Shown piece by piece: positions 2,695 through 33,179 of a DNA stretch of 34,655 nucleotides (position 1 is the first letter of the stretch; every line of letters starts with the position of its first letter). Under the pieces are notes generated by a model that did no database searches, was not told the DNA's origin, and was given only the letters and a program-made list of their open reading frames with translations. This DNA comes from Terriglobia bacterium (GTDB lineage Bacteria; Acidobacteriota; Terriglobia; Acidiferrales; UBA7541). Where the stretch lies: contig JAIQFB010000036.1 in NCBI GenBank assembly GCA_020073485.1, positions 1 to 34,655 on the forward strand, written 5' to 3'. A program made the translations under genes and the position numbers.

Positions 2695-2721
2695 CTGGGC
2701 TGCAAGTACAGCCCAGACCCG
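2695..2721 (-). repeat. Dispersed hairpin, copy 1
   Basis: Arms CTGGGCTG/CAGCCCAG, loop TACTTG, head CGGGT, read on the minus strand. It ends 16 nt before the start at 2678. The innermost pair is G-C where copy 2 has C-G (covariation). Confidence 0.9.
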
Positions 2722-3939
2722 CTACTGAACGTCGTAGCCTGTGAGCGTGACCGATTCAAATTCGTTTGTGAGCAATGCCGCGAATTCCAGCGTCATCGCC
2801 GTCGCGGGCGAGCCGATCAGATTCAACCCGCAGAAATTGTAGGCTCCGTGATTCGCGGCCGTAGCCGCGGCATTCACGTCCACCGACCAGAGCACCGTGC
2901 CGGCGCCGCTCGCGCCATCGCGGAGATTGATCACGAGCGAAGTGGCGGTGGGCGCTGTGGATGCGCCAGCGGTTACGCTGATGCAATCGGCCACATGCCG
3001 GACACCCGCTGCGCCGGCCGCTTTGCTCGCGGACGCTTGGGTGCTCACCGCCGGATTGCTGACAACAGACCATCGCGCGCCTTTCTCGGTGAGGGATGGT
3101 CCAAGATTTAGACCCGCCGTGAGCGTTGCCGCGGATGGCGAAGGAGAAAAACCAGGCTTATTGAACTCATAAAAAAGCGTGAACGAATTCGGAGATGCTC
3201 CACCAGAGGTGTAGGACCAGGTAAACGCTGTCGCGACCTGTGCCGGCATCGAAAAAAATTGCACGTTGGTTGTGGCGGCCAGGGGGAACGTAAAGCTCGA
3301 GGAGACACCGACGGAACTGACCTGGGGCGTGATCGTAATGCTGGAATTGGCTGGAATCGCGCCGCCCTGGGGGATCATCACCAACGTTCCGGCCAAACTC
3401 CCGTAGGGCGTGGGAATGTTGAACGAACCGCCGAAGTTTGATCCGAGCGTGGGGCCTGTAGCAAGATTACGCGAGAACCCGGTCTGATCCATCGGGCCAG
3501 GCAGCAGAGATCCGGATACCGATGTGCCGGAGTAAAAAACGGCCATCGTTCCGCCGCCCGTGCAGTTCGCCACTACCTGAACGATCGGATAGTATCCCGA
3601 GACCTGGAGAACTCCGCTCGATGTGGAAGTCCCCATATCGCTGATCGTTTGCGGAGTGCCGCCTGTCGAGAATGATCCTTGCAGGAAGATGCTCGCGCTG
3701 CTTATCGCACCGCCCGTGATATTCCACGAGAGGAAGTGTATGTTCTGGCCTGAATTGGGAATGACTCCAATCGCTGAAGTGACCGGAGTTCCATTGCAAG
3801 TGAGCGATGGAATTGGGGTGACCGCCACGGTCTGTGGAGAGGCGTAGCCCAGAAACTGGGCGCGAGCTGGGGTCGAGCAGTAGATCAGCGCTACCAGTAA
3901 TCCAATAAAAACGTTAAAACGTTTAAATGTTTTTTTCAT
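2722..3939 (-). CDS. Secreted protein of unknown function, 405 aa
   Basis: Starts at ATG 3939 behind a GGAG. The signal peptide is basic (KKTFKRF), then hydrophobic, and is cut around PARA-Q. The mature protein is rich in Ser, Thr, Gly and beta-branched residues with few charges, typical of extracellular beta-sandwich proteins. Several paired cysteines (SLTCNG, VANCTGG, VADCIS, FCGLN) could form disulfides after export. It sits between two hairpin repeats (2695-2721 and 3977-4003) and follows the capsid-candidate cluster. I infer a virion surface or host-envelope protein. No homologue recognised. Confidence 0.75.
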   Translation of the reverse strand: MKKTFKRFNVFIGLLVALIYCSTPARAQFLGYASPQTVAVTPIPSLTCNGTPVTSAIGVIPNSGQNIHFLSWNITGGAISSASIFLQGSFSTGGTPQTISDMGTSTSSGVLQVSGYYPIVQVVANCTGGGTMAVFYSGTSVSGSLLPGPMDQTGFSRNLATGPTLGSNFGGSFNIPTPYGSLAGTLVMIPQGGAIPANSSITITPQVSSVGVSSSFTFPLAATTNVQFFSMPAQVATAFTWSYTSGGASPNSFTLFYEFNKPGFSPSPSAATLTAGLNLGPSLTEKGARWSVVSNPAVSTQASASKAAGAAGVRHVADCISVTAGASTAPTATSLVINLRDGASGAGTVLWSVDVNAAATAANHGAYNFCGLNLIGSPATAMTLEFAALLTNEFESVTLTGYDVQ

Positions 3940-3976
3940 CGCTCCATGCCTTTGCGTCTCCGTGCTTTTTTTCTAG

Positions 3977-4003
3977 CTGGGCTCCAAGTAGAGCCCAGAC
4001 CCG
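3977..4003 (-). repeat. Dispersed hairpin, copy 2
   Basis: Consensus form: head CGGGT, arms CTGGGCTC/GAGCCCAG, loop TACTTG. Sense to the flanking genes; 37 nt before the start at 3939. Confidence 0.9.
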
Positions 4004-4489
4004 CTACATGGTTGTGAGATTCGGATCCTCGTACGCGAGCGGGTAATACCAGCCAAGCAAGCGCCCGCCGGAGAGTTGCCCAGCGAGGATCACGCTTACA
4101 TTCGTCACGGACAGCGTGACCACCTGATTCTCGAATACGCGGAAGCCGCTGGGATGGCGCGTGGGGCTCGCAGGAGATCCCAGGCTGCCGAGGATCGTGT
4201 CGTAGCCGTCGACGGGAGCGCCATCTCGCGCGATTTGCCACGTCACGGCACCTGCCCCTTCGATCCATCCGCCGCCCACGAAATTATTTCCGTACGTGGT
4301 GATGATCCCATTGTTCCCCGTGGGAATCTGGATCGAAATGATGGTCGCGCTCGCGCCGATCGCCGGGAGGGCGATGTAATTGAACAGATCGATGGGCTCG
4401 AATTCCGCGGGCGGATAAATCCATGCCGGCAGGCGGTACGACCCGTTTTCAATCGAGTCGGGACCGAGGGGATACGCCGGGGCGTTCAT
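4004..4489 (-). CDS. Beta-sandwich structural protein candidate, 161 aa
   Basis: Starts at ATG 4489 behind GGGAGGG and overlaps the preceding gene's stop by ATGA, so translation is probably coupled. The protein has no signal peptide. It is strongly beta-rich, with alternating strands such as SATIISIQIPTG, GIITTYGNNFVGGG, VTWQIARDG and VVTLSVTNVSV. That pattern fits a single jelly-roll, and the motif of an exposed IPTGNNG turn followed by a GGW region suggests a capsid-vertex, penton or spike protein of an icosahedral virus. The assignment rests on fold impression and on position in the structural cluster, not on a recognised family. Confidence 0.7.
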   Translation of the reverse strand: MNAPAYPLGPDSIENGSYRLPAWIYPPAEFEPIDLFNYIALPAIGASATIISIQIPTGNNGIITTYGNNFVGGGWIEGAGAVTWQIARDGAPVDGYDTILGSLGSPASPTRHPSGFRVFENQVVTLSVTNVSVILAGQLSGGRLLGWYYPLAYEDPNLTTM

Positions 4490-5046
4490 ATCGATTTCCC
4501 TCCCTGGATGCCGTACATCCCGAACTGGATCTGGTTCGGATTGGGTTCCAGATTCACGATCGTGATGAGCACCTGTGAATTCGATTTTTGGAAGGCGTAG
4601 GGAGCCGCCTGGCGCGAGCCGGTGAATCCACCTTGGTATAGCGGCGAGCTGCCGGTTCCGGCCAGAGTCTGCAAATTCACCGGCCGATCGGTGAGGCGCA
4701 GGCGTCGGTTCACGTCATAGACGTTCACGCGAAAGCCGCCCTTGGTGTTTACCGAAGCGCTGCCAAAGTAGCTGAGCAGCCGGAAGTCATCCGGCATGGG
4801 AATGCGCACGCGGCCGGTCTTCAAAGCGCCCAGGGTGTTGTACTCGCAGTACACCCAGATAGGAAATCCGCCCTTGATCGGGATAATGGTGCCGTCCCCG
4901 AAAATGTACGGATCTTTCTGATTGTTCGCGGGAAACCCTCGCAACGCGAACTGGTTGAGCAGCGTATTGACCAGGCGCGGCAGCGTAAGCGGCCGTAAAG
5001 GCGCCTGTGGCGGCGGAGCTGCGCCGAGATTTGAAAACCATCCCAT
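4486..5046 (-). CDS. Structural protein candidate, 186 aa
   Basis: ATG 5046 is chosen because AGAAAGG lies 7-13 nt upstream; the longer frame reads through the hairpin at 5065-5091. The N-terminus is short and Pro-rich (APPPQAPLRP), then a mixed alpha/beta region follows with GTIIPIKGGFPIWVYCEYN, VRIPMPDDF, GGFRVNVYDVNRRLRLTD and a terminal NSQVLITIVNLEPNPNQIQF strand pair. It looks cytoplasmic and beta-rich, like a minor capsid or spike-base protein. It is tightly coupled to the next gene (4-nt overlap). Function unknown. Confidence 0.7.
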   Translation of the reverse strand: MGWFSNLGAAPPPQAPLRPLTLPRLVNTLLNQFALRGFPANNQKDPYIFGDGTIIPIKGGFPIWVYCEYNTLGALKTGRVRIPMPDDFRLLSYFGSASVNTKGGFRVNVYDVNRRLRLTDRPVNLQTLAGTGSSPLYQGGFTGSRQAAPYAFQKSNSQVLITIVNLEPNPNQIQFGMYGIQGGKSI

Positions 5047-5064: not shown

Positions 5065-5091
5065 CTGGGCTCCAACTAGAGCCCAGACCCG
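5065..5091 (-). repeat. Dispersed hairpin, copy 3
   Basis: Arms as consensus, loop TAGTTG. 18 nt before the start at 5046, immediately followed by the ribosome site. Confidence 0.9.
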
Positions 5092-5147: not shown

Positions 5148-5585
5148 TCAGCTCGCGACCTGCAGCAGCGCGAAGCCGTGATAGACGAGCTGCACGGTGT
5201 TTTGCGCGCCGCTCGAATCCGTGAATGCGTGCTGGTAGGAGCGCGACGCCGGCATGACGTAGGGCACGGCCACGGGAAACGCCCCGTTGCTGGCCACCAG
5301 GCCTGCCAGGTTATCGATGAACACGCCGTTGAACACAGACGAGGACGACTGCTGCGAGCCGGAATAAATCATGGCGCGCTGCGTGGCCGCCTCCGTGATC
5401 AGGACTTTCATCCTGGAATCCGTGCGAAACGCCGCGAGGAACCACCACTCGAAATCCGCGTCCTGCGGGATGGTGAGGATGCTGGGTAGCTGCGTATTCA
5501 GCGGCACCACGGCATCCACCACCAGCACCCGCGGGATTTTTACGATGCCGCTAGCCGTAGCTGTGGCATTTGGTGAAGAACTCAT
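5148..5585 (-). CDS. Structural protein candidate, 145 aa
   Basis: ATG 5585 is preferred over the in-frame GTG 5594 because AAAAAGG then sits 8 nt upstream. The protein has no signal peptide. A Ser/Thr/Ala N-terminus is followed by beta strands (GIVKIPRVLVVDAVV, WWFLAAFRTDSRMKVLITEA, VFIDNLAGLVAS, VQLVYHGFALLQVA). The ADFEWWFLA segment is a notable aromatic cluster. The small size, beta content and position between other capsid candidates suggest a minor capsid protein. No family recognised. Confidence 0.7.
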   Translation of the reverse strand: MSSSPNATATASGIVKIPRVLVVDAVVPLNTQLPSILTIPQDADFEWWFLAAFRTDSRMKVLITEAATQRAMIYSGSQQSSSSVFNGVFIDNLAGLVASNGAFPVAVPYVMPASRSYQHAFTDSSGAQNTVQLVYHGFALLQVAS

Positions 5586-5637
5586 TGCACTCACCTTTTT
5601 CTACCCCACCGAAGGGGCGGCTTTTTACTTTAAATAG

Positions 5638-6595: not shown

Positions 6596-6600
6596 TTTAT

Positions 6601-7183: not shown

Positions 7184-8278
7184 TCAAACGAACCTCGCCA
7201 GGGCAAATCCGCCAAAGACCAGCGCGCCAATCATCAGCCAGTTTGTGGAACTCGCAGGAGCTGATGTGGCGGACGGCTGTTGCGGAATCACGAGCGTGCT
7301 GCCGCTCGAAACGATCGGCGCCGCCACGGGTCCGGCGCCGGCGGATCCGCTGCCAGGCTGCGCGGCGACCGAAGCCGTCGCGGGTGTCACCGCCGATGAC
7401 GCCGGAATCTGCGAACTCTGCTGGACAGGTGCGGGTTGCGCTTGCACGGGGCTGGGAGAAGCCAGAGCTGCAGCCTGCTGCGCGGCGAGCGCGCTGAATT
7501 GCGCCTGCCAGTAAAGAACCATCGCCTTCGCGATTACGGCCATTTCGCAATTCGCATTGCAATAGGGGCTGGTGCCGTAGGACGGCGAGATGTAAGACCG
7601 GTAACTCGAATAGAGCGAATCGAGGGACGCGGCCGCGGCCGCTGGCGTCGTCTGCCCGTTCTGCACGGCCTGCTGGATCACGCTCATCGCGTTATTGAAC
7701 GCGGCCAGGCTGGCGCAGCCGATCTGCTGTTCCTGTTTCACCGCGGCGGAGTGATGCGCGAAGATCATGCCTATCACGGCAACAATCAATCCCACGCCCA
7801 TCGTTGCTGCGCCCAGCGCCGTAGCCGTAGTGGCTGCGATCGCATTAGTTGCGAACGCGATGCTCGTTCCCGTCGCCGCGGCGCTGAGTGAAAGCCCGCT
7901 GACCGTGGAAAACAAATTCAGGTTCGACGCAGCCTGCTGTCCGCAGTTCGGATCGAACCCTGAGATATCGAATTGCCCGTTCTGGATCTGGTCATAGGCC
8001 TTGGCCATCCAGGTGGGATTTTGAAAATCGCGCGAATTGAGATTCGGCACGCCCTGCATGGCCTGCTGCATTGCGGCATCGGGAGTAATTGGCGTGGCAG
8101 CGCCTAGGCCCCGCAATGTGCTCCGCTTTGAGCAACAGGAGGGACATCCGGCGGGTGTGGGCTGTACTTGCAGCCCACCGAGAGAAAGCGTACGCACTCC
8201 AAGCGCGCGCGGAATGCCAAGCACTGCGTATCCGGAGAGGTTACGCTGCGCTCGATCGAGTTGGTATGCTCCCAGCAC
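7184..8278 (-). CDS. C-tail-anchored membrane protein with internal hydrophobic hairpin, 364 aa
   Basis: The best start is GTG 8278 with GGAAAG just upstream; a start nearer residue 69 (MQQAM) cannot be excluded. A strongly hydrophobic, Ala/Gly-rich stretch (about residues 125-175) is followed by a helical domain with four cysteines (GCASLAAFN, PYCNANCEMA), a Pro/Ala/Ser-rich linker of about 80 residues, and a C-terminal membrane helix (WLMIGALVFGGFALARFV). A copy of the dispersed hairpin lies inside the N-terminal coding part (8152-8178) in antisense orientation. The linker-plus-tail-anchor plan is shared with five other proteins here. I infer a virion or host-membrane structural protein. 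Confidence 0.65.
   Translation of the reverse strand: MLGAYQLDRAQRNLSGYAVLGIPRALGVRTLSLGGLQVQPTPAGCPSCCSKRSTLRGLGAATPITPDAAMQQAMQGVPNLNSRDFQNPTWMAKAYDQIQNGQFDISGFDPNCGQQAASNLNLFSTVSGLSLSAAATGTSIAFATNAIAATTATALGAATMGVGLIVAVIGMIFAHHSAAVKQEQQIGCASLAAFNNAMSVIQQAVQNGQTTPAAAAASLDSLYSSYRSYISPSYGTSPYCNANCEMAVIAKAMVLYWQAQFSALAAQQAAALASPSPVQAQPAPVQQSSQIPASSAVTPATASVAAQPGSGSAGAGPVAAPIVSSGSTLVIPQQPSATSAPASSTNWLMIGALVFGGFALARFV
8152..8178 (+). repeat. Dispersed hairpin, copy 5 (inside a gene, antisense)
   Basis: Arms GTGGGCTG/CAGCCCAC, loop TACTTG, head CGGGT on the plus strand, inside the minus-strand gene 7184-8278. Both covarying pairs differ from the consensus. Confidence 0.85.
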
Positions 8279-8413: not shown

Positions 8414-8440
8414 GTGGGCTCCAAGTAGAGCCCACACCCG
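8414..8440 (-). repeat. Dispersed hairpin, copy 6
   Basis: Arms GTGGGCTC/GAGCCCAC. The outer pair is G-C instead of C-G. 8 nt before the small ORF start at 8405. Confidence 0.9.
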
Positions 8441-9087: not shown

Positions 9088-9281
9088 CGTAGTACCTCCA
9101 ATTTATTTGTGTCCGGCGGTGCGATCGAATGCGATACCTGGCGGCCCACGGCGGCCAGCCGGCATTGCTGCCCGATCTTGTTCAGCCCGCAGCCCGCGAA
9201 TCGGCACTGGACGCAAAGCTCGGCCGTGCTGAACGTGCCGCAGCAGTAGCACATGACTTTCTCTTTTTTCTTGCTAGTCAC
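9084..9281 (-). CDS. Small zinc-ribbon protein, 65 aa
   Basis: Frame begins at GTG 9281 (8-nt overlap with the gene before) or at ATG 9254; the stop overlaps the next start as TTGA. Four to six cysteines are arranged as CYCC-x9-CVQC-x4-C, with another Cys further on, a metal-binding knuckle. Lys-rich N-terminus if the upstream start is used (TSKKKEK). Translational coupling on both sides marks it as part of the structural operon. Role unknown. Confidence 0.55.
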   Translation of the reverse strand: MTSKKKEKVMCYCCGTFSTAELCVQCRFAGCGLNKIGQQCRLAAVGRQVSHSIAPPDTNKLEVLR

Positions 9282-10263
9282 GAATCCAAGACCCCTCGAT
9301 GCGATACGTCGCGCGTCCCAGAATCAGGCGGCGCAATTTCCGGTTGTAGAAAATCGTCGGCCGCGTGCCGCCCTCTTCTCCGAATTCGTGATCCCAGCGG
9401 ACGTCTTCGCCGCGCGCGCTGGCCGGCACTTCGTGGCCGAACTTTTTCATCGCGTAGCTGATCGCGCGGAACTGGCCCAGGTCGGCCAGCTCCGACGTGG
9501 AATCGGTGAACATGCGCAGATCCGCGTCGCTCAGCTCCTGGCCTTCGCCCACGATGTAGAGCTGGCGGCCGGCGGGATCGGAGACGAGCTCGAGGCGCTT
9601 GCCCGGGAAACTGATCTCTTGCACGCTGGACGCGGATCCCGTCGACGTGGGCTTGACGGCCACGGCAATGAATTCGCCGCAGTCGGTATAGTCCCCGGCG
9701 GGCATGTGCGGCTCATCCATCACGGTGTAGTGCTCGCTCGGCTCACCGGAAAATCCTTCGCGCAGATCTCTGGACTTTTCTGCCGCTGGGCTCAAAGTAG
9801 AGCCCAGACCCGTTGTGCTCTCTGCCGTGGCGGGATTTGGCAAACGGTTTTTCAGCCGCTTTGCTTCCTGGACCATGCGCCTGGCTTTCGCAAGGTCTGA
9901 GCCGGTTTGAATCTGTGCTTTCCCGAGGCCAAGACGGCCGAAGGCTAATTTTTCGTTCACACTCAGCGAGTCGTAGATGCCTGCTCGCGATTCGTGACGC
10001 GCGCGCGCGGACTGGATCGCCGTGGCGGAAGGATTCGCTCCCATCAAGAGCAGCTCGGCAGGATTCTTCATCGCCACGGAGCACGGATTTTCGTGCTTGG
10101 GATGGAGGATCCCCACGACGATTCCGGAGCCGGTCCGCCGCGGGCCCGGAGGAAACGCCACGCGCACCTGGCGCGTCCCCGCCTTCACCGTGCGGACTTT
10201 GTAGCCGGCAGGAATGCTGCGCAGTTCCTGATGGCGGAATCGGGATGTTTCTCCGGATGGCAT
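9274..10263 (-). CDS. Structural-operon protein of unknown function, 329 aa, with in-frame hairpin repeat
   Basis: ATG 10263 overlaps the preceding stop as TAATG, so coupling replaces a good ribosome site. The N-terminal half has a beta stretch (GYKVRTVKAGTRQVRVAFPP, GIVVGILHP) and a charged helical part (KARRMVQEAKRLKNRLP). At 9786-9812 the coding frame passes through a sense copy of the dispersed hairpin, read as GLGSTLSPA. After it comes a second domain of about 165 residues (YTDCGEFIAVAVKP, RQLYIVGEGQELSDADLRMF, TRPTIFYNRKLRRLILG). The hairpin looks like an insertion that joined or split two domains. The C-terminal part has the feel of a small virion-associated protein; no family recognised. 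Confidence 0.65.
   Translation of the reverse strand: MPSGETSRFRHQELRSIPAGYKVRTVKAGTRQVRVAFPPGPRRTGSGIVVGILHPKHENPCSVAMKNPAELLLMGANPSATAIQSARARHESRAGIYDSLSVNEKLAFGRLGLGKAQIQTGSDLAKARRMVQEAKRLKNRLPNPATAESTTGLGSTLSPAAEKSRDLREGFSGEPSEHYTVMDEPHMPAGDYTDCGEFIAVAVKPTSTGSASSVQEISFPGKRLELVSDPAGRQLYIVGEGQELSDADLRMFTDSTSELADLGQFRAISYAMKKFGHEVPASARGEDVRWDHEFGEEGGTRPTIFYNRKLRRLILGRATYRIEGSWIRD
9786..9812 (-). repeat. Dispersed hairpin, copy 7 (in frame inside a gene)
   Basis: Consensus arms, loop TACTTT. Read as GLGSTLSPA within gene 9274-10263. Confidence 0.9.
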
Positions 10264-14370: not shown

Positions 14371-14424
14371 CGGGTCTGGGCTCTACTTTTACGCTGAACG
14401 CTTCAAGTGAAGCGTGGAGCCCAG
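14371..14424 (+). repeat. Dispersed hairpin, copy 8 (expanded loop)
   Basis: Head and outer arms are consensus, but the loop carries an extra hairpin, ACGCTTC-aagt-GAAGCGT. Located in the divergent control region, sense to the plus arm. Confidence 0.8.
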
Positions 14425-15987: not shown

Positions 15988-16049
15988 GGGTTGAGTTAAG
16001 AGTCTCGCAGCTCGCGACTCAACCCTTTGCCTTTTTGGAAGCGAGCTGC
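15988..16049 (+). promoter_or_regulatory. Structured leader with two interlocking inverted repeats
   Basis: GGGTTGAGT (15988-15996) pairs perfectly with ACTCAACCC (16017-16025). GCAGCTCGC in its loop (16008-16016) pairs perfectly with GCGAGCTGC (16041-16049), which abuts the helicase start. The two stems interlock, so they form either a pseudoknot or alternative folds. Possible translational or replication-control element; no known family recognised. Confidence 0.45.
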
Positions 16050-16055
16050 GAGCTT

Positions 16056-17498
16056 ATGTCCACTGTTGCCTTTGGCCGAAAAACTCCACCACCGAATTTC
16101 GATAAGCCGCTACCACAAAATCTTGACGCCGAACGATCTGTCCTGGGAGCGATCCTCCTCGATCCGTCGGTTCCCAACGCCACATTGAAGGCCGTCGCCG
16201 AGCAGCTCCACGCCGGCGATTTTTTTCTTCCGGAGCATCAGTGCATTTTCCGCCACATGGTCCAACTCACCGAAAGTCAAAGCCCGATCGATACGCTGAT
16301 CCTGATGGACACGCTCACGGCCGCATCGGAACTCGATCGCGCCGGAGGTTCAGGCTATCTCGCGAAACTCACCGATGGCGTCCCCGCAATTTCGAATCAC
16401 GTGATGCACGCGAAGATCGTCCGCGAAAAATCTGTCTCGCGGCAATTTATTTATAAAATGAACGACCTGCAGCAGCGCACGATCGAGGGCGGCGCCAATA
16501 ACGAAGAATTGATGGACGAGTTCAACGCCTTCAGCCGGCACGTAGCCACCGGCCGAAAGACCGGAATCGTCGCCGCGACCGCGGCCGACTTCCTCATCAT
16601 GAAACTCGATCCCCTGGAATTTATAATCGAGCCGCTGCTACCGCTCCGCGGATCGGGCATGATCTACTCGCCGCCAGGCCTTGGTAAGACGCACCTCGCT
16701 CTCTATATGGCTTACTGCATCGCCATCGGCGCACCAACATGTTTTGTCTGGGATATTCCGAAGGCGCGGCGCGTGGTCTACGTCGATGGTGAAATGGACG
16801 CCGAAAGTTTACAGGAAATGCTTCGGCAGATCATGCTCGGCCTAGACGGGAAAGTGCCGGAGGATCCCGAGTACCTCCGTATCGTGAACCCGGATATTCA
16901 GAAGGGAAGCACCCCAAGAATCAACACCCTCGAAGGACGCGCCGCCATCGAATCCCTCGTGAAGCCCGGAGACATTCTCTTCCTGGACAACCTCAGCACA
17001 CTGTGCCCAGGAGCGGATGAAGACGAAACGGAAAACTGGTCAAAGGTTCAAGAATGGATCCTCGATCTCCGGCGTAAGGGAATTGCCACGTTTATCGTCC
17101 ACCATGCCAACAAATCCGGAGCCAGTCAGCTCGGCACGTCGAAAAAAGAGCACCAACTCAGCGTCAACATTCGCCTCCGCAGACCCTCAAATTATGAACA
17201 GGTGGAAGGCCTGCGCGTCGAAGTGGTCTTCGATAAATTGCGCAGCCGCGGGGCCGGGCCGTTCAAGGCGCAATGGGCGCAGCCTTTCGAAGTCGAGCTC
17301 CGCGTCGAAGATGGCAGGGCGATTTTCCTGCACAAACCGCTGACGAAAATCCTCAAGGAACGCGCCAAGCAATACCTGGTCGGTGGAATGAAAGAGCACG
17401 ACGTTGTTCTCGAGACCGGGCTTTCCAGGTGGACCGTCCGGCGGATCGCGCGGGACATAAAATTCGAGGGTGCCGGCGAGAACTCAAATGAAGACTGA
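16056..17498 (+). CDS. Replicative helicase: DnaB N-terminal domain fused to RepA/AAA_25-type RecA ATPase, 480 aa
   Basis: Residues about 20-120 match the DnaB N-terminal (primase-interacting) domain (LPQNLDAERSVLGAILLD, then HAGDFFLPEHQCIFRHM). The motor core differs from ordinary DnaB: Walker A is YSPPGLGKTHLAL (about 208-220), Walker B is DILFLDNLSTL (about 308-318) and a TFIVHHANKSG motif follows, as in RSF1010-RepA-like hexameric helicases. The C-terminus has a helix-turn-helix-like LSRWTVRRIARDIKF. ATG 16056 is preferred; TTG 16035 is in frame, and neither has a good ribosome site. It probably unwinds the viral origin and recruits host primase. No polymerase is encoded. The chimeric layout is known in phages. 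Confidence 0.9.
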   Translation: MSTVAFGRKTPPPNFDKPLPQNLDAERSVLGAILLDPSVPNATLKAVAEQLHAGDFFLPEHQCIFRHMVQLTESQSPIDTLILMDTLTAASELDRAGGSGYLAKLTDGVPAISNHVMHAKIVREKSVSRQFIYKMNDLQQRTIEGGANNEELMDEFNAFSRHVATGRKTGIVAATAADFLIMKLDPLEFIIEPLLPLRGSGMIYSPPGLGKTHLALYMAYCIAIGAPTCFVWDIPKARRVVYVDGEMDAESLQEMLRQIMLGLDGKVPEDPEYLRIVNPDIQKGSTPRINTLEGRAAIESLVKPGDILFLDNLSTLCPGADEDETENWSKVQEWILDLRRKGIATFIVHHANKSGASQLGTSKKEHQLSVNIRLRRPSNYEQVEGLRVEVVFDKLRSRGAGPFKAQWAQPFEVELRVEDGRAIFLHKPLTKILKERAKQYLVGGMKEHDVVLETGLSRWTVRRIARDIKFEGAGENSNED

Positions 17499-20491: not shown

Positions 20492-20720
20492 GTGGGTCCA
20501 GAGGCAGGAAGTCCGACTCCGCGACGAGGCTGCTGCGGTAGAAGTATCCGCCGCGGCTTTAGCGGAGGTGGACCCTGTGGCCAGCGCCGCGCGCGAACAT
20601 GCTCACAAGCGAGCTGCGCGCGCGGCGCGTCCCCGCTCAAACCGGACTGCAAGTTCAGCCCGGCCCCGCCTTCCGCGGTTGAAATACGAGCATGGTGAAT
20701 TCGTCAGGAGGAATGCATGA
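20358..20720 (+). CDS. Possible basic helical protein, 120 aa (overlaps the previous gene)
   Basis: The frame ends in an ATGA overlap with the Tad2-like gene, which suggests translation, but its start would lie 134 nt inside the preceding gene. ATG 20358 or 20376 are candidates. Basic and helical (RRALKRAAKEGKSWLLKLLR, VQRQEVRLRDEAAAVEVSAA). A diverged antisense copy of the dispersed hairpin lies inside it (20642-20668). The 3' two-thirds is probably coding; the 5' end is uncertain. Confidence 0.4.
   Translation: MKRCPMESASHAGKNIFRRALKRAAKEGKSWLLKLLRDIIWRADEWVQRQEVRLRDEAAAVEVSAAALAEVDPVASAAREHAHKRAARAARPRSNRTASSARPRLPRLKYEHGEFVRRNA
20642..20668 (-). repeat. Dispersed hairpin, diverged copy (antisense in plus arm)
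   Basis: On the minus strand: arms CCGGGCTG/CAGTCCGG with one G-T pair, loop AACTTG, head CGGGG. Confidence 0.6.
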
Positions 20721-21816: not shown

Positions 21817-23838
21817 ATGAACATCCCTCTCGGCTACGAAATCGGCACCGGCAAGCGGGTAACGATCCCCGTGAATCATACGGTGGTCCTCGGCCAGACG
21901 CAGCTCTCCGGGAAAACGACCACGCTCGAGGCAATGGTCACGCGTTCCGGGCTGCGCGCCATCGGATTCATCACCAAGCCGGGCGAAAAATCGTTCCGCC
22001 AGCAGAACACGATCCCGCCGTTTTTCAGCGAGTCTACGATCGCGGATTACTGGAAATACGTGGTCTCGATCGTGGAAAACCTGATGTCCGTGAAGCTCGG
22101 ATGGCAGGAGCGCGGCTGGATCGTGAAGCTCTGCCAGGACTACGAGCGCGAAGGCAAAACGAAGAAAGACCACTACGAGTGGGAGCAGCCCAAATCTCTA
22201 AGGGAGCTGCTGGGCAACGTGGAAATGGCCCTCCCGCATTTGCGCGGCACGGCGGAAATGATCTGCATGCAGCTCCGCGAATATCTCAAGGCCGTCGTCC
22301 GCGAAATCGAAAAAACGGAATTCTCTGACAAGCTCGATCTGCGGCCCGGGATCAACGTGATGGATGTGACCGAGCTATCCGACGGATTGAAAGCCTTGGT
22401 GATCCGCTCGGTGATCGAGCATGTCCACAAGCACGGCCGCAAGACGGTGATCATCATCCCCGAAGCGTGGAAGTTCATTCCCGAGGGGCGCAGCACGCCC
22501 GTGAAGCTGGCCCTTGAGGGGCTGATCCGCGAGGGCGCCGGCGTGGGCAATTTCGTTTGGATGGATTCGCAGGACCTGCGCGGCGTGGACAAGCTCCTGC
22601 TGCGCAGCGTGATCGTGTGGCTGTTCGGCGTGCAGCGCCAGAAAAACGAAGTGGCCAGCACGCTCGCCAGCATTCCGGATCATCCCAAACCATCGGCTAC
22701 GGAGGTCATGCAGCTCGGCAAAGGCGAGTTCTTCGTGACATACGGAACCACCCTGGTGCGCACCTACGTCCAGCCCGCCGGCATGGAGGACGCGCACGCC
22801 CAGGCAATCGCCCGGGGAGACGAGTCGCCCGATTCCTGGCGGCAGATTGCGAAGGCACTCGATGAAGAAAGCGAAAGCAAAGAGCAAGTCCAAACCGAAG
22901 ACGATGCCGAGATATCGTCGCCGCAAGATCGATTGGCCGGCAATGTACCTTTTGGAAAAGAGCGACAACGAAATGCTGAGGCTGGAGATAGCCGATCTGC
23001 AGAACCGGATCAACTCTCTTCTCGCAGACAAGCGGAAAGTGGTGGTAGTGCACCAAGCGGGAAGGTTCGGGTAGATGAAAGTGACCCGGCGCAAAGTGAA
23101 ACTGAAATTCGAAACGCTGCAGGGGCGGATCGTGACGATCCCGGGAGTGAGGACGAGTCTATGTGGAAAGAAAAATACGAAGCGCTCGAGGTTGAACACA
23201 AAAAACTGATCGAGGCGCATGACGCCCTGGCGCTGCAGGTAAGAAACCTCCTCGGGCGGATCGATGAATCCGAGCGCGCGGGAGAAACAGTTCTTTTCAC
23301 GAAATCCTCATCCGGCGCGCCTGGCGTTGCGGCGGATCGGGGGGAGAACGGGGCGGTGAAATCCAATACTGCTGCCCCGGAAGGGAAGCCGGGAGTGGCG
23401 GATGCGAAATGCTCGCTGGGAACCGCCGCTCTCGTTCCCTTCGACGGCCGCCCAGCGCGCTATGACCTGAATTTCATCTATGAGGAAATCAAGCATCGTG
23501 CGCAAAAAGATCCTGGGATCCTCGAGCTGCTCACGCGGCATCCCGAACTGCGCGTCAAGGTCGAGCGGCAAATCATCACAGCGGACGCCGGCACGCTCCG
23601 CGGCGCCCTGGCGCTGCTGATCAAAAACAAGTTTTTCGATTCGCCGCAAAACGGCAACACCGCATTCAACGAACTAAAACGCCTGGGCCGCGCCGTGGCC
23701 AAGCCCAACGTCTATCGCGAACTGGACAAGCTGGCCGAACTCGGCTTCGTCACGAAGGAAGACACCGGTTATCAGGCCGTGCCGCGAATGGAAGTCTATA
23801 TCGAGCAAACAGTAGTGAAGGGAGCCGCAGCGCGATGA
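21817..23838 (+). CDS. HerA/FtsK-like ATPase (candidate packaging motor) with C-terminal winged-helix-like domain, 673 aa
   Basis: Residues 1-340 are a P-loop ATPase of the HerA/FtsK/VirB4 kind: Walker A GQTQLSGKTTT (about 27-37), a TKPGE segment, Walker B KTVIIIPEAW (about 208-217; Pro replaces the usual Asp, Glu is kept), then an IREGAGVGNFVWMDSQDLRG motif like HerA's arginine-glutamine region. Packaging ATPases of tailless membrane phages belong to this superfamily. Residues 345-450 are polar, low-complexity and overlap two other frames (22862-23209). A coiled coil (WKEKYEALEVEHKKLIEAHD) and a winged-helix-like domain (IKNKFFDSPQNGNTAFNELK, VYRELDKLAELGFVTKED) follow. ATG 21817 is preferred over TTG 21793. 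Possibly two or more genes fused. Confidence 0.85.
   Translation: MNIPLGYEIGTGKRVTIPVNHTVVLGQTQLSGKTTTLEAMVTRSGLRAIGFITKPGEKSFRQQNTIPPFFSESTIADYWKYVVSIVENLMSVKLGWQERGWIVKLCQDYEREGKTKKDHYEWEQPKSLRELLGNVEMALPHLRGTAEMICMQLREYLKAVVREIEKTEFSDKLDLRPGINVMDVTELSDGLKALVIRSVIEHVHKHGRKTVIIIPEAWKFIPEGRSTPVKLALEGLIREGAGVGNFVWMDSQDLRGVDKLLLRSVIVWLFGVQRQKNEVASTLASIPDHPKPSATEVMQLGKGEFFVTYGTTLVRTYVQPAGMEDAHAQAIARGDESPDSWRQIAKALDEESESKEQVQTEDDAEISSPQDRLAGNVPFGKERQRNAEAGDSRSAEPDQLSSRRQAESGGSAPSGKVRVDESDPAQSETEIRNAAGADRDDPGSEDESMWKEKYEALEVEHKKLIEAHDALALQVRNLLGRIDESERAGETVLFTKSSSGAPGVAADRGENGAVKSNTAAPEGKPGVADAKCSLGTAALVPFDGRPARYDLNFIYEEIKHRAQKDPGILELLTRHPELRVKVERQIITADAGTLRGALALLIKNKFFDSPQNGNTAFNELKRLGRAVAKPNVYRELDKLAELGFVTKEDTGYQAVPRMEVYIEQTVVKGAAAR
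22862..23074 (+). CDS. Nested basic protein in an alternative frame of the ATPase gene, 70 aa
   Basis: ATG 22862 opens a frame with GC-rich third positions, unlike the ATPase frame there. It encodes a Lys/Arg-rich N-terminus (KKAKAKSKSKPKTMPRYRRR) and a helix (NEMLRLEIADLQNRINSLLA) ending VVVVHQAGRFG. The codon pattern argues this frame is the one under coding selection in 22862-23074. Confidence 0.5.
   Translation: MKKAKAKSKSKPKTMPRYRRRKIDWPAMYLLEKSDNEMLRLEIADLQNRINSLLADKRKVVVVHQAGRFG
23075..23209 (+). CDS. Nested small basic protein in an alternative frame, 44 aa
   Basis: ATG 23075 follows the stop of the preceding nested frame immediately (TAGATG), with GGGAAGG upstream. Beta-like and basic (VTRRKVKLKFETLQGRIVTI, PGVRTSLCGKKNTKR). 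An ATG at 23161 in the ATPase frame, with GAGGAC before it, could then start the C-terminal domain as a third gene. Confidence 0.45.
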   Translation: MKVTRRKVKLKFETLQGRIVTIPGVRTSLCGKKNTKRSRLNTKN

Positions 23839-24811: not shown

Positions 24812-25017
24812 TGCGCTGTCCGCGATGCAGCGCCGATCTTGAGGAAATTCACCCTTCCAAAGATTGGCTGCGGCACTGGCGTTGCGACGATTGTTTGCTG
24901 GCATGGCGATTGCGGGGGGGGGTATTAGAAATGGGACGTTCACGAAATGAAGGATTCGCAACGGGTCTGGGCTCTACTTGGAGCCCAGCGGAAAGAAGAC
25001 GAAATGACGCGACGTGA
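24808..25017 (+). CDS. Zinc-ribbon protein ending in a hairpin repeat, 69 aa
   Basis: GTG 24808 (or ATG 24811) overlaps the previous stop. MRCPRCSADL and WRCDDCLLAW form a classic zinc ribbon. A G9 tract (24914-24922) flanked by GC and TAT, as at 21228, falls at residues 36-38. The last 18 residues are encoded by the dispersed hairpin (GLGSTWSPA) and probably are not a functional domain. A change in the G tract would remove this tail. Confidence 0.6.
   Translation: MMRCPRCSADLEEIHPSKDWLRHWRCDDCLLAWRLRGGVLEMGRSRNEGFATGLGSTWSPAERRRNDAT
24962..24988 (+). repeat. Dispersed hairpin, copy 9
   Basis: Consensus form, plus orientation, 15 nt before the start at 25004 and inside the 3' end of the preceding gene. 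Confidence 0.9.
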
Positions 25018-26242: not shown

Positions 26243-26442
26243 GTAACCGAAGCAAAACGACGTGCTGTCCATTTTTCCACAAGTGGCCGAAGTGGACGAC
26301 GATCGAGGAACGCCAGGGAGGTTTCTTTGGCGACGATCCGATATCTAGCAGGGAGCGGATTATCGGTGGCCGCATCTGCTATCAGCGCAAGGAATGTGAA
26401 CGGTGCGGCATGGTGAAACTGCGGAGGGAAGTTGCGACGTGA
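26239..26442 (+). CDS. Small Cys/His protein, 67 aa
   Basis: GTG 26239 overlaps the lipoprotein stop. CCPFFHKW and ERCGMVKL with CYQRKEC provide four to five potential zinc ligands. Ends in a GTGA overlap with the DUF5131 gene. Function unknown. Confidence 0.6.
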   Translation: MSNRSKTTCCPFFHKWPKWTTIEERQGGFFGDDPISSRERIIGGRICYQRKECERCGMVKLRREVAT

Positions 26443-27446
26443 GCGACAAATCAAAAATCGAATGGACGGACGCGACATGGAACCCGATCCGCGGCTGCTC
26501 GCGCGTGTCCGAGGGCTGCCGCAACTGCTACGCCGAGCGGTTTGCCACGAGGTTTCGCGGTCCTGGTGAAATATATGACGGTCTGACGATCGTAAACGGA
26601 AGCGGAGATCCGCAGTGGACCGGCGAAGTGAAATTCATTCCCGAGCTGTTGGACCAGCCGCTGCACTGGAAGCGCCCGCGCAAAATCTTCGTCAATTCGA
26701 TGTCGGATTTGTTTCATGAAAAAGTGAAGGACGAAACGATCTGCAGAATCTTCGCCGTGATGGCGCTATCCCCGGAGCACACGTTTCAGGTGCTCACGAA
26801 GAGGCCATCTAGGATGCTTGGTTTTATGATCGCAGGCTTGGCGGCTGCAGATAATCGGAGATGGATACAGGACATTCTCGAGGAAGAATTCCACGATCGA
26901 GACGCCGCCTACAAACTGATGGATCGCTGGCCGCTGTCAAACGTCTGGCTAGGCGTGAGTGTTGAGGATCAGAAAACGGCGGACGAACGGATCCCGCTGC
27001 TGCTACAGACGCCGGCGGCGGTGCGCTGGGTGAGCTACGAGCCTGCTCTCGGCCCCATAAATTTCCGGTGCATAAAAGAAGCGTGTGAGGATCACGATAA
27101 CTATTTCGATGCGATCGGTGGAATTCGCTCGATCCGGCCATGCCTCGATTGGATCGTGGCTGGTGGGGAATCCGGGCCAGGCGCGCGGCCGATGCATCCG
27201 GATTGGGCGCGCGCGGTGCGAGATCAGTGCCAGGACGCGCGCGTGCCCTTCTTTTTCAAGCAGTGGGGTGAATGGATTTCCTTGGCGAACTGGCCAGATG
27301 CGGAAGGCTACGATCCGAAGTGCACGTTTATCGGCAAGAATTGTGATGGTGGCCTAATGCTTCGTGTAGGCAAAAAACGCGCTGGTCACAAGTTGGACGG
27401 CGAAGTGTTGCAACAGTTTCCGTCCGCGAAGGCGGTCTCGGCATGA
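26439..27446 (+). CDS. DUF5131 (phage Gp37/Gp68 family) protein, 335 aa
   Basis: The opening SKIEWTDATWNPIRGCSRVS followed by EGCRNCYAERFA is the family signature; the C-x5-C-x2-C cysteines probably bind an iron-sulfur cluster or zinc. Further blocks also fit: IFVNSMSDLFHE, HTFQVLTKRP, LSNVWLGVSVEDQ, WVSYEPALGP, DWIVAGGESG and PFFFKQWGEW. Length is normal or a little long for the family, with an extra stretch around residues 210-235. Function is not established; the fold is radical-SAM-like. GTG 26439 is chosen because of the GTGA overlap. Confidence 0.9.
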   Translation: MSDKSKIEWTDATWNPIRGCSRVSEGCRNCYAERFATRFRGPGEIYDGLTIVNGSGDPQWTGEVKFIPELLDQPLHWKRPRKIFVNSMSDLFHEKVKDETICRIFAVMALSPEHTFQVLTKRPSRMLGFMIAGLAAADNRRWIQDILEEEFHDRDAAYKLMDRWPLSNVWLGVSVEDQKTADERIPLLLQTPAAVRWVSYEPALGPINFRCIKEACEDHDNYFDAIGGIRSIRPCLDWIVAGGESGPGARPMHPDWARAVRDQCQDARVPFFFKQWGEWISLANWPDAEGYDPKCTFIGKNCDGGLMLRVGKKRAGHKLDGEVLQQFPSAKAVSA

Positions 27447-27847: not shown

Positions 27848-27874
27848 CGGGTCTGGGCTCTACTTGGAGCCCAG
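27848..27874 (+). repeat. Dispersed hairpin, copy 10
   Basis: Consensus form, starts at the nucleotide after a stop codon and ends 24 nt before the lipoprotein start. Confidence 0.9.
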
Positions 27875-29039: not shown

Positions 29040-29066
29040 GGGGTATGGGCTCCGCTTGGAGCCCAT
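29040..29066 (+). repeat. Dispersed hairpin, variant copy
   Basis: Arms ATGGGCTC/GAGCCCAT, loop CGCTTG; the outer pair is A-T, a third solution at the same covarying position. Degraded copies follow at about 29079-29100 and 29111-29131. Confidence 0.75.
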
Positions 29067-29144
29067 GTCAAGGAAGATCGGGGTTCTACGTGGAGCCCAG
29101 AGTGAAGAAAGTCTGGGCACCTTAGATCCCACCTGAAGGAAGAT

Positions 29145-30833: not shown

Positions 30834-30860
30834 GTGGGCTCCAAGTAGAGCCCAGACTTC
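30834..30860 (-). repeat. Dispersed hairpin, copy 11
   Basis: Arms GTGGGCTC/GAGCCCAG with a mismatched outer pair and a changed head. 9 nt before the start at 30824; tandem with copy 12. Confidence 0.85.
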
Positions 30861-30866
30861 TTGTGC

Positions 30867-30893
30867 GTGGGCTCCAAGTAGAGCCCACACCCG
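30867..30893 (-). repeat. Dispersed hairpin, copy 12
   Basis: Arms GTGGGCTC/GAGCCCAC, head CGGGT. Tandem with copy 11, six bases apart. Confidence 0.9.
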
Positions 30894-31016
30894 ATAGTTT
30901 TGGCGATGGCGCAAAAGCTGACTGAGTTCCTCCTCCACTCGATTCACCGCAATCCGCAGCGCCAGAAACGTTTTTGTAGCGGGATGCAGCTCCTGCCTTC
31001 CCCCTTCTTGTTCGAG

Positions 31017-31043
31017 CTGGGCTGCAAGTACAGCCCAGACCCG
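31017..31043 (-). repeat. Dispersed hairpin, copy 13
   Basis: Arms CTGGGCTG/CAGCCCAG, loop TACTTG. It follows the 40-residue gene 31059-31181; the open frame after it (to 30894) has no clear start codon. Confidence 0.9.
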
Positions 31044-31058
31044 TGACCATCGCCAAAT

Positions 31059-31181
31059 TTATTTTCTCCGCAGCAGTTGCGCCAGGCGCTCTTTCATTCC
31101 CGCCTTGAATTGTTTTGGCGTACGCGGATTCTTCAGCGCTTTCCGGAGGCCTTTAATCTGCTGCTTGCGCGTGAGATTCAC
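31059..31181 (-). CDS. Very small basic protein, 40 aa
   Basis: GTG 31181 overlaps the upstream stop as GTGA and has GGGAGG 9 nt upstream. Lys/Arg-rich helices (LTRKQQIKGLRKALKNPRTP and FKAGMKERLAQLLRRK). A hairpin (31017-31043) follows it. Probably nucleic-acid binding or a basic lysis/packaging peptide; unknown. Confidence 0.6.
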   Translation of the reverse strand: MNLTRKQQIKGLRKALKNPRTPKQFKAGMKERLAQLLRRK

Positions 31182-31591
31182 TTCGCGGATCCTCCCGGCG
31201 CCGGCGCATTGCCGTCATCGATCTTCGGGATCTCGGACTTGATCCAGCCCGGCGCCTTTCCCCAGGTGGAAAACCAATCGAGCAGGGAATCGGCGAAAAA
31301 CCCGAATAGAAAACTGGTGAGCGGATTCACCGGGATCGTAAACGGCACCGTGTAGCCGGTGAGGCTCGATATCCAGGGCGTCACGTCGTAATGCCGCCAG
31401 CCATAAAAAAGCGGCAGCTCGAGCGCCGCGCGCGTGAGCAGCACAACCCAGTTCTTTTCCAGGAAGGCGCGTTTGGTGGCGCCCGCGCGATATCGCGCGT
31501 AGATGTCCGCGCGCTTCAGATCGTGCAGAAGCTGCCCGGCGAAAAACGCCAGCCAATAGAGGAAATCGCCCACGTGGTGATGAGTCATCAT
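31178..31591 (-). CDS. Membrane protein in the lysis cluster, 137 aa
   Basis: ATG 31591 has GGAGAAAG upstream. Hydrophobic stretches (VGDFLYWLAFFAGQLLHDL; KNWVVLLTRAALELPLFYGW; TIPVNPLTSFLFGFFADSLL) give about two or three membrane segments, and the C-terminus is polar (APGWIKSEIPKIDDGNAPAP). It lies after two muralytic enzymes, so a holin or holin-like role is plausible. Unrecognised family. Confidence 0.65.
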   Translation of the reverse strand: MMTHHHVGDFLYWLAFFAGQLLHDLKRADIYARYRAGATKRAFLEKNWVVLLTRAALELPLFYGWRHYDVTPWISSLTGYTVPFTIPVNPLTSFLFGFFADSLLDWFSTWGKAPGWIKSEIPKIDDGNAPAPGGSAK

Positions 31592-31674
31592 GTCTTCTTT
31601 CTCCGGGTCCGGCTCCGGTCACCCCGTCACATGCATTGCCAGCAGATCGATCGCTCCCCAAAGCGTGAGAACGA

Positions 31675-31797
31675 TCACCGTGCCTGCCGCAGCCGCCGCC
31701 AACCCCAGAAGCGCCGCAGCAAGCAAAACAGCGGATAGCCGAACAGCACGACAGCCGCGAGCACAACGCACAAAACCGCGAAGATGATCCATCCCAT
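31675..31797 (-). CDS. Small single-span membrane protein, holin candidate, 40 aa
   Basis: ATG 31797 lies 18 nt after the hairpin at 31816-31842 with AAAGGA between. One membrane helix (IIFAVLCVVLAAVVLFGYPL) and a basic tail (RRFWGWRRLRQAR). Another frame over the same DNA (31619-31792) also encodes a hydrophobic segment; a 19-residue GTGA-coupled peptide in that frame could follow. The ribosome site favours the 40-residue protein. Position just after the transglycosylases suggests lysis. Confidence 0.5.
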   Translation of the reverse strand: MGWIIFAVLCVVLAAVVLFGYPLFCLLRRFWGWRRLRQAR

Positions 31798-31815
31798 TAC
31801 TGATCCTTTTCTCCG

Positions 31816-31842
31816 CTGGGCTCCAAGTAGAGCCCAGACCCG
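31816..31842 (-). repeat. Dispersed hairpin, copy 14
   Basis: Consensus form between the muralytic enzyme and the holin candidate; 18 nt before the start at 31797. Confidence 0.9.
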
Positions 31843-31845
31843 GCA

Positions 31846-32481
31846 TCACGCGCTCATCGCTTTCGGGGGCTCGTCATCATCAGAAAACCCCTGATAGATA
31901 TTCATCCGCGCCAGGCCGTTCGGAATGTATTGCGGATCGGCGGTGGGGGCGCCGTGCGGCCGGCCCGTATTCCAGCAGTTCAGCAGCTCGGCGAAATCCT
32001 TCGCCAGGTCAAGTTGATATCGTTCGGAAAATTGCGCGAGCATCCGCAGCGTGATGCGCAGCGAGCCTTCGGAATCGGTCCAGAACGTGCGGCTGGCAAA
32101 GGGAATGGCTTCGTAGCCCATTATCTGGGTAAGACCCCAAGAAGTCGCAAGGCTGTCAAGCTGCTGCAGCGACCGGGTGAGGCGGGCCAGCAATCCCGCG
32201 GGAGAAATTTCCGTAAGACCCGGATCGGGAGCGGAGATGTAAGCAAGGACGTCGTCACGTCGGATGCTTCCGTAAGACGCCGCACGTCCCTGCAAAAGCT
32301 CCCAGAGAGCCGCAAGCACGTTTCGTTCATGTCGTTTTGCATCCGGGTTCCCTCCGGACTCATTGGCGATCAGCGCAGCCAGAAATGCCGGCGGCACGGT
32401 GGACGTCTTGCACGCGGACACGATCGCCGGATCCCACTTCGCGTGGATCGATTTCATCAGGAGTGTGTTCGCGTCCGTCAT
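31846..32481 (-). CDS. Lysozyme/transglycosylase-fold muralytic enzyme, 211 aa
   Basis: ATG 32481 is 14 nt after the hairpin at 32496-32522; the longer frame reads through it. The lysozyme-like core shows FLAALIANESGGNPDA (catalytic Glu near residue 40), TSWGLTQIMGYEAIPF (the GLTQIMG block) and a later LAKDFAELLNCWNTGR. There is a non-canonical insertion of about 70 residues between the first two blocks. It would cleave peptidoglycan glycan strands for lysis or entry. No signal peptide, so release depends on a holin or virion delivery. Confidence 0.8.
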   Translation of the reverse strand: MTDANTLLMKSIHAKWDPAIVSACKTSTVPPAFLAALIANESGGNPDAKRHERNVLAALWELLQGRAASYGSIRRDDVLAYISAPDPGLTEISPAGLLARLTRSLQQLDSLATSWGLTQIMGYEAIPFASRTFWTDSEGSLRITLRMLAQFSERYQLDLAKDFAELLNCWNTGRPHGAPTADPQYIPNGLARMNIYQGFSDDDEPPKAMSA

Positions 32482-32495
32482 GTGTCTTTTTCTAC

Positions 32496-32522
32496 GTGGG
32501 CTCCAAGTACAGCCCACACCCG
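32496..32522 (-). repeat. Dispersed hairpin, copy 15
   Basis: On the minus strand: arms GTGGGCTG/GAGCCCAC with one G-G mismatch at the innermost pair, an intermediate between the two covarying forms. 14 nt before the start at 32481. Confidence 0.85.
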
Positions 32523-33179
32523 TCAAAACTCCTGCAGGACCAACCCGATGCCCAGGATCACTCCCATCACCAGCGCCGCGGTGCCCCAGGAGAAGCCGCT
32601 CGGTGGCGGGGGCGGAGCTCCGGGAACCAGGCCGCTGGGGACGGGTCCGGGCTGTGCTTGCAGCCCGGAGGGAATTATTAAAGTCGAAGTGCTTCCGCCA
32701 GGTGAGACGCCCGCGCCGGCCGCGGCCGCTGCAGCCACCACGCTGTACTGCGTATTCACGTTGTTCAGGATTTTATTGACGTAGTTCTGCGTCTCCGCAG
32801 GGGCCAGCGCCAGCCATCCCGGCATCGATGCCGCGCTAGGCGCCGCGGTGATGGTGAAGTTCCCCGCCTGCGCGATCGCGTTCGAAACATTTCCCGGACC
32901 CCAGTTATAGGCCGCGAGCGCCGCGGCGGGATCTCCGAACTGCGCCAGGAGCTGCCGCAGATAAGAGACTCCGCCCTGAATGTTTTGCTGCAGGTCATTC
33001 GGATCCACGCCCAGGCCCGCGGCTGTATCAGGCATGAGCTGAAAAACGCCAATCGCGCCCCTCGCGGAAACGGCGTTCTGATTCATCCCGGATTCCACCT
33101 GGGCAACCTCGAGCGCGAGCGCGGGATCCACGCCCTGGCGCTGTGCCTCCGCGATGATCAGTTGTGGGATGGTAGACAT
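32523..33179 (-). CDS. Lytic transglycosylase (SLT family) with C-terminal membrane helix, 218 aa
   Basis: The SLT domain (residues 5-115) shows all blocks: ALALEVAQVESGMNQNAVS with catalytic Glu, GAIGVFQLMPDTA, GGVSYLRQLLAQFGDPAAAL and AAYNWGPGNVSNAI. Then a Pro/Gly-rich linker, part of which is an antisense copy of the hairpin (32642-32668), and a membrane helix (GTAALVMGVILGIGLVLQEF). ATG 33179; ribosome site weak. Membrane-bound transglycosylases in membrane-containing phages act during entry by opening the cell wall; that use is likely here. Confidence 0.9.
   Translation of the reverse strand: MSTIPQLIIAEAQRQGVDPALALEVAQVESGMNQNAVSARGAIGVFQLMPDTAAGLGVDPNDLQQNIQGGVSYLRQLLAQFGDPAAALAAYNWGPGNVSNAIAQAGNFTITAAPSAASMPGWLALAPAETQNYVNKILNNVNTQYSVVAAAAAAGAGVSPGGSTSTLIIPSGLQAQPGPVPSGLVPGAPPPPPSGFSWGTAALVMGVILGIGLVLQEF
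32642..32668 (+). repeat. Dispersed hairpin, copy 16 (inside a gene, antisense)
   Basis: Arms CCGGGCTG/CAGCCCGG, loop TGCTTG, head CGGGT on the plus strand, within the minus-strand transglycosylase linker. The second pair is C-G in place of T-A. Confidence 0.85.

Follow-up and report, generated by a model that had tools for sequence, protein, structure and literature searches.

Background

Among the closest described systems are the repetitive extragenic palindromic (REP) sequences with their REP-associated tyrosine transposases (TnpA_REP/RAYT). REPs lie mainly behind genes, the GTAG ones travelling with a known transposase (PMC3733652), and a tetranucleotide 5′ of the hairpin guides cleavage in REPs and at IS200/IS605 ends (PMC6006769, PMC8266576). 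Class 3 TnpA_Y1-associated structures are reported principally from Planctomycetes, Acidobacteria and Proteobacteria, with the foot CnGA and about 600 copies in Solibacter usitatus (PMC6006769). In Cluster K mycobacteriophages the start-associated sequence (SAS) is 13 bp long and comes with 17-bp imperfect inverted repeats; SAS and extended SAS (ESAS) are described as phage features, and ESAS sites are well conserved across Cluster K (PMC3203893). Here, a 27-nt hairpin was analysed that recurs in contig JAIQFB010000036.1 (34,655 nt; hereafter the window, meaning the whole stretch of DNA analysed), a complete contig of the 5.05 Mb genome assembly of the Terriglobia bacterium GCA_020073485.1 (the host). 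It appears to be a complete phage-like element, circular or terminally redundant, that was binned together with the host genome. We read the hairpins, at a probability of roughly 0.6, as a REP-like, non-autonomous dispersed palindromic repeat with a new foot, shared by the host and phages.

The hairpin unit and its copies in the window

The window holds 11 occurrences of the exact core pattern (CGGGT-stem-TACTTG), where shuffles predict 0.04. A looser scan recovered 17 recognisable hairpin copies, the number reported in an initial annotation of the window, and a covariance model trained on 16 of these 17 matched 18 places, including one long-loop form and one degenerate match. The 27-nt unit consists of a CGGGT head, an 8-bp covarying stem and a TACTTG loop. 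The copies are listed by window position; the related phage is the viral contig L060, described below.

2695-2721, minus strand: hairpin unit with innermost pair G-C, directly after a TAG stop and 16 nt before an ATG
3977-4003, minus strand: hairpin unit directly after a TAG stop, ahead of the 2722-3939 gene
5065-5091, minus strand: hairpin unit ahead of the 4486-5046 gene, kept in the related phage (L060:984-1010)
5638-5664, minus strand: hairpin unit ahead of the 5148-5594 open reading frame (ORF), 52 nt before the ATG, absent in the related phage
8152-8178, plus strand: hairpin unit antisense inside ORF 7184-8278 (a gene that our own simple caller starts later, at 8071), kept in the related phage
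8414-8440, minus strand: hairpin unit ahead of ORF 7184-8278, missing from the related phage
9786-9812, minus strand: hairpin unit within gene 9274-10263 and in sense with it, missing from the related phage
14371-14424, plus strand: long-loop form with the same outer stem
20642-20668, minus strand: degenerate match (25.6 bits)
24962-24988, plus strand: hairpin unit 15 nt before an ATG
24989-24998, plus strand: example of the A-rich tail (cggaaagaag)
27848-27874, plus strand: hairpin unit immediately following a TGA stop, with an ATG 24 nt downstream
29040-29066, plus strand: hairpin unit with a GGGGT head, between convergent gene ends
29074-29100, plus strand: decayed copy neighbouring 29040-29066, between convergent gene ends
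30834-30860, minus strand: second unit of a tandem pair (33-nt spacing), with a GAAGT head and one mismatch
30867-30893, minus strand: first unit of the tandem pair
31017-31043, minus strand: hairpin unit with innermost pair G-C
31816-31842, minus strand: hairpin unit 18 nt before an ATG
32496-32522, minus strand: one-mismatch hairpin unit immediately following a TGA stop, with an ATG 14 nt downstream
32642-32668, plus strand: hairpin unit antisense inside the SLT gene 32523-33179

By our reading, a start codon follows at a distance of 9 to 52 nt in ten window copies, both tandem units included; the initial annotation had given 8-52 nt for most intergenic copies. The sense direction that it claimed for the intergenic copies was recovered in most genomes examined (see below). 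In correction of its account, 8152 and 32642 lie antisense within genes, 9786-9812 lies in sense within a gene, and the copies at 29040-29100 lie between convergent gene ends.

Over 245 arrays, the full unit comprised the foot CGGGT, a 22-nt hairpin and an A-rich tail of about 10 nt, about 37 nt in total. Foot base frequencies were C 0.95, G 0.98, G 0.99, G 1.00 and T 0.94, values biased by the array scan itself, which favoured a CGGGT head. The last base of the tail was G in 57%, and beyond foot, hairpin and tail there was little conservation in these arrays save a mild preference for A at the two bases preceding the foot. The A fraction of the tail was 0.56-0.61 in antisense and in-gene copies and 0.53-0.58 in leader copies; because the former are equally A-rich, the tail was assigned to the unit, and its interpretation as a selected ribosome-site context was rejected. 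An ordinary terminator was likewise rejected, as no T-run follows 3′, in agreement with the initial annotation, and the sense-strand tail is A-rich instead.

Units also cluster. Among 124 copies there were 19 neighbouring pairs less than 300 nt apart, 17 on the same strand and two on opposite strands, with linkers of 6-7 nt in 14 of the 17 same-strand pairs. The 54-nt long-loop form, which shares the outer stem, occurs once in the window and in about a dozen host places, and one orthologous site (idx 7) holds the long-loop form in the host and the short form in the sister species G005. The tandem and long-loop forms, together with the uneven copy number reported below, would also suit what is left, as decaying ends or as relics, of a now lost larger insertion sequence (IS) or miniature inverted-repeat transposable element (MITE). 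Flanks of 400 nt per side compared within four genomes gave, among the rows listed, short matches only, mostly further hairpin units plus a few local repeats; with no long shared flanks, membership of a longer element was rejected, and we regard a relic of this kind as improbable.

Structure of the stem

The repeated covarying hairpin in the window is confirmed. Over 97 distinct host and window copies, 96.6% of the stem cells were paired, 70 cells were changed on both sides compared with 19.0 in shuffles, and the covariation score was 0.321 against 0.137 in shuffled alignments and at most 0.045 in slid controls. Changes on both sides affected three pairs (outer, second and innermost), the same three that had been named as variable from the window copies, so the description of a conserved loop on a covarying stem is supported.

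In 318 copies found without using pairing, the non-Watson-Crick cells comprised 75 G-U and 39 A-C. The G-U to A-C ratio was 54:29 in sense gaps, 7:7 in antisense gaps, 6:0 in sense copies inside genes and 7:2 in antisense copies inside genes, orthologous and tandem copies being treated as independent in all these counts. The excess of G-U fits a single-strand structure on the sense strand, a fit that does not separate RNA from single-stranded DNA (ssDNA). RNA folding closed the loop by a U-G pair over ACUU, which gives 9 bp in the short copies folded.

Orthologous host and G005 copies were compared at 19 of the 24 sites present in both (idx 57 was skipped as too different, and four were long-loop or tandem). 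Seventeen stem pairs had changed, of which seven kept pairing one-sidedly, five kept it by changes on both sides and five were broken. Without idx 28, 29 and 54, where arrays or a further copy come into play, 13 had changed (seven one-sided, two both-side and four broken). Mean divergence at the orthologous sites was 9.0% in the hairpins and 12.7% in the flanks. As compensatory and G-U changes account for part of the stem's preservation, some single-strand property, of RNA or of ssDNA, appears to be conserved.

Distribution in the host genome and its relatives

The covariance model was searched against further genomes, the check proposed with the initial annotation, and both covariation above the shuffled and slid controls and a family reaching beyond the phage were found. 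For the host, the best 150 of 2321 candidates were scored, and likewise the best 150 in each other genome, so high whole-genome counts are lower bounds. The host genome (5.05 Mb) held at least 136 matches at E ≤ 1, at least 118 of them outside the window, and at least 114 at E ≤ 0.001, at least 96 of them outside. The exact pattern occurred 11 times in the window and 35 times outside, with zero occurrences of a reversed-pattern control. Hairpin density in the window exceeded that in the rest of the host 22-fold by the model (an upper estimate) and 45-fold by the exact pattern. Subsequent context work took 106 of the 118 non-window host matches, leaving out 12 partial or weak ones.

Copy number was uneven among congeners: at E ≤ 0.001 there were at least 119 matches in the sister species G004 and at least 111 in the sister species G005, and nine, five and seven in the congeners G001, G002 and G003. 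In six genomes, each from a different other genus of the family, there were zero model matches at this threshold, one genome of another family of the order gave one, and the exact pattern was absent from 19 same-family genomes of other genera. Carriers in GTDB r220, among the matches listed, were Candidatus Acidiferrum typicum RYN_24 (G004, as judged by matching contigs), Terriglobia SRVP_21 (G005) and palsa_189, with single copies in a few other metagenome-assembled genomes (MAGs), one labelled Limisphaerales. The isolated copies outside the genus, in the Limisphaerales MAG palsa_1396 (L095) and in G025:C91, possibly represent misbinned contigs or phage. Seven hairpin matches were observed in one 19-kb ribosomal-protein stretch of the host (L187, G000:C12:93300-112656), where the sister species also has several hairpins, in partly different gaps.

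Seven viral contigs carried the pattern. Two window phage proteins used as queries retrieved no relative among viral contigs, yet the pattern scan yielded IMGVR_UViG_3300050821_014220 (L060), a contig in synteny with the window phage and matched by 17 window proteins at identities of 38 to 95%. L060 keeps two of five comparable copies (5065 and 8152) and lacks three (5638, 8414 and 9786), so the absence of hairpins from the same gene starts in relatives, which the initial annotation had named as an argument against its own proposal, is partly observed. In the L060 counterpart of 8152 the second pair is C-G in place of T-A and the outer pair is lost, and L060 has a copy of its own (L060:2280-2306) that has no counterpart in the window.

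The high density and the placement at gene starts in the window could be taken for a private phage signal acting on RNA or DNA, for instance in packaging or in phage translation control, and a phage-specific role such as packaging had been suggested. Copies occur throughout the host chromosome, with at least 96 host matches outside the window (E ≤ 0.001), and in the sister species, and the family is only partially conserved in the related phage. A phage-only signal is rejected by the host copies, and we give a private phage role hardly any credence.

Turnover at orthologous sites

Flanks of 44 host arrays could be placed in G005, in contigs chosen among those known to hold a copy. The hairpin was present at 24 of these sites, none of them antisense, and absent at 20, where it was lost or never gained; a looser scan of the same 44 sites gave 25 present and 19 absent. 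Two of the 24 present sites (idx 29 and 54) depend on another copy within the interval, and one of the 20 absent sites (idx 61) retains the head with an altered loop. At the empty-site junctions, CGGG lay nearby in 8 of 26, compared with 1 to 6 of 26 for seven words of the same composition; one of these 26 comparatively clean "empty" rows still holds a shortened copy. As evidence for a precise target the signal is suggestive only, and that candidate was not retained.

Uneven copy number, differing sites, tandem units and copies inside genes point to a mobile or duplicating DNA unit of the REP type.

Position and orientation relative to genes

Gene calls were made with our own simple caller. 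The ratio of sense to antisense arrays with respect to the next gene was 60:13 in the host chromosome, 29:4 in SRVP_21, 31:6 in palsa_189, 12:3 in the window, 15:3 in the viral contigs and 5:1 in the mixed remainder; Candidatus Acidiferrum typicum, at 12:10, had no bias. Host gaps comprised 37 co-directional sense, 11 co-directional antisense, 23 divergent and two convergent arrays, and nine of 83 host arrays lay inside genes. In G005 (1.17 Mb) there were 16 co-directional sense, four antisense, eight divergent and one convergent arrays, compared with 7.7, 7.7, 9.0 and 4.7 expected from gap length, and seven in genes. Replication strand was rejected as the cause of the sense bias (orientation follows GC skew in 19 of 37).

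In the host, 55 genes lie downstream in sense within 300 nt. Ten of these were picked by hand, and eight match S7, L16, L15, S13, S11, MetK, serine hydroxymethyltransferase and MreB; the remaining two gave no family match. Hairpins also end 12 nt before a tRNA-Val gene, 14 nt before a tRNA-Arg gene and 62 nt before a 16S rRNA gene. Translation, one of the roles first proposed, therefore cannot be the only one, as the copies precede tRNA and 16S rRNA genes too. A link to codon-biased genes was tried in G005 and was not significant (17 downstream genes, p 0.07; 14 genes without the ribosomal-protein contig, p 0.44).

The sense bias, the leader position and the kept structure suggest that the copies matter as RNA, or that they are tolerated only when readable as leader. 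Taken at its strongest, this would make the hairpin a true cis-regulatory RNA leader of the host genus, with a host protein binding the ACUU-type loop on its GC stem and tuning translation, stability or processing of the RNA downstream, and with phages having recruited it for placement before their own genes. Such a leader would agree with the orientation in the host, two relatives and the viral contigs (15:3), with the 16 sense to four antisense arrays in co-directional gaps of G005 and its single convergent array against 4.7 expected, with the tRNA-Val, tRNA-Arg, 16S rRNA and eight named (hand-picked) genes downstream, with both-side stem changes at orthologous sites, with G-U over A-C at 54:29 in sense leaders and 7:7 in antisense gaps, and with the high density in the window phage. 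It fits less well with the absence of sense bias in Candidatus Acidiferrum typicum, the mere five to nine copies in three congeners, the difference of about half of the compared sites between sister species, the non-significant codon-bias link in G005, and in-gene and antisense copies that have the same tail, the antisense in-gene ones with G-U to A-C at 7:2. We consider it possible but doubtful. A related and rather unlikely version is a domesticated, genus-wide RNA leader module, in which a host factor would read the conserved loop, mRNA, tRNA and rRNA transcripts would carry the hairpin as a movable 5′ leader, and phages of the genus would accumulate copies so as to connect their genes to that host system.

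Comparison with known systems and weighing of the repeat reading

We found no description of this hairpin repeat in the literature searched, and in the window zero Rfam families reached the gathering score. Like REPs with their TnpA_REP/RAYT enzymes (PMC3733652, PMC8266576), it is a palindrome of 20-40 nt that follows a short, conserved foot on the 5′ side, is present in many, mostly intergenic copies whose number is uneven from one related strain to another, has GT pairs in its stems and forms clusters of units. It differs from REPs as described there in its A-rich tail, in having close pairs head to tail and not as the inverted pairs of bacterial interspersed mosaic elements (BIMEs) and REP doublets forming hairpins (REPINs), and in lying ahead of gene starts and rarely in convergent gaps, REPs being placed mainly 3′ of genes, in unidirectional and convergent gaps. 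Failing four REP features (foot, flanked transposase, 3′ placement and inverted pairs), the repeat is better termed a REP-like variant than a member. Class 3 TnpA_Y1 structures (PMC6006769) resemble it in phylum, in a hairpin with a 5′ foot and in high copy number. SAS/ESAS (PMC3203893) resembles it in that repeated copies immediately precede some of the phage start codons, nearly all of them in one orientation and about half with an inverted repeat. Compared by description, the hairpin differs from SAS/ESAS in being mainly a host-genome repeat with sites that differ between relatives. Acido-Lenti-1 RNA (RF01687), a structured RNA of a separate Rfam family, has a copy near the 16S hairpin in L233 (2939-2983, minus strand), with a Y1 transposase gene on one side and the 16S rRNA gene on the other.

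Y1 transposase loci (PF01797) were sought in six genomes of the genus. A hairpin and a Y1 locus are about 0.5 kb apart in L009 (16S leader) and also in L236, and about 1.5 kb apart in L013, at rpsG; no cognate Y1 transposase in cis was found among the 19 loci, some of which are cut by contig ends. Six of the 19 Y1 loci gave no ORF; around the other 13, a separate palindrome scan (stems of at least 9 bp, thus blind to the 8-bp hairpin) detected flanking palindromes at one, L249, which shows that Y1 genes with such flanks do occur in the genus. In L249 (G002) the palindrome GCACAGGCA-ctct-TGCCTGTGC, distinct from the hairpin, stands on both sides of the transposase gene (1042, 1231 and 1838) and probably belongs to a separate REP-like system in the same genus.

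For the REP-like repeat, we propose the following course. The family resides chiefly in one Acidobacteriota genus, that holding Candidatus Acidiferrum typicum, and has also settled in the phages of this group at higher density. The simplest means of spread would be recognition of foot and hairpin as a single strand by a Y1/HUH-type transposase acting in trans, and slippage may have produced the 33-34 nt tandem arrays. Copies survive mainly between genes and mostly in sense with the downstream gene, where they should be transcribed as a leader hairpin, which might space, stabilise or process the leader; a leader-RNA role of this sort is plausible but unproven.

Several observations weigh against the REP-like reading. 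The hairpin flanks none of the 19 Y1 loci, which separates it from REPs and Class 3 structures alike, and with CGGG near the junction at 8 of 26 empty sites mobility by a Y1 enzyme is something we infer. The foot CGGGT is not the GTAG, GT[AG]G or CGTC of REPs, nor does it fit CnGA. The empty sites vary among themselves; precise insertion is therefore not demonstrated, and deletion may explain many of the absences. Retention of about half of the sites at 12.7% flank divergence (9.0% in the hairpins) is not obviously the behaviour of a purely drifting repeat. Finally, the sense bias and 5′ placement are unlike the REPs of PMC3733652 and fit regulatory RNA at least as well.

Other features of the window

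A 169-bp perfect direct terminal repeat was observed at 1-169 and 34487-34655. PHROGs matches were obtained for two of 20 window proteins scanned, and the phage lineage therefore looks poorly known. One is a DUF5131 protein (26403-27446, plus strand; phrog_2045, E 2e-111). A large protein (21817-23838, plus strand) without Pfam or PHROG match contains a GQTQLSGKT stretch resembling an ATP-binding loop, and a DnaB-like helicase (16035-17498, plus strand) is encoded on the same arm. A transglutaminase-like domain is present in a further phage gene (13247-14476, minus strand).

Significance

The hairpin is unlike described REPs (PMC3733652) in combining a different foot, an A-rich tail, head-to-tail arrays and a mostly sense placement ahead of genes. 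A bacterium and its phages have this repeat in common, and its density in the phage is many times that in the host. The line between a spreading DNA repeat and a leader RNA can be tested here by sister-species comparison, and the hairpin is a possible tag for assigning phages to uncultured Acidobacteriota.

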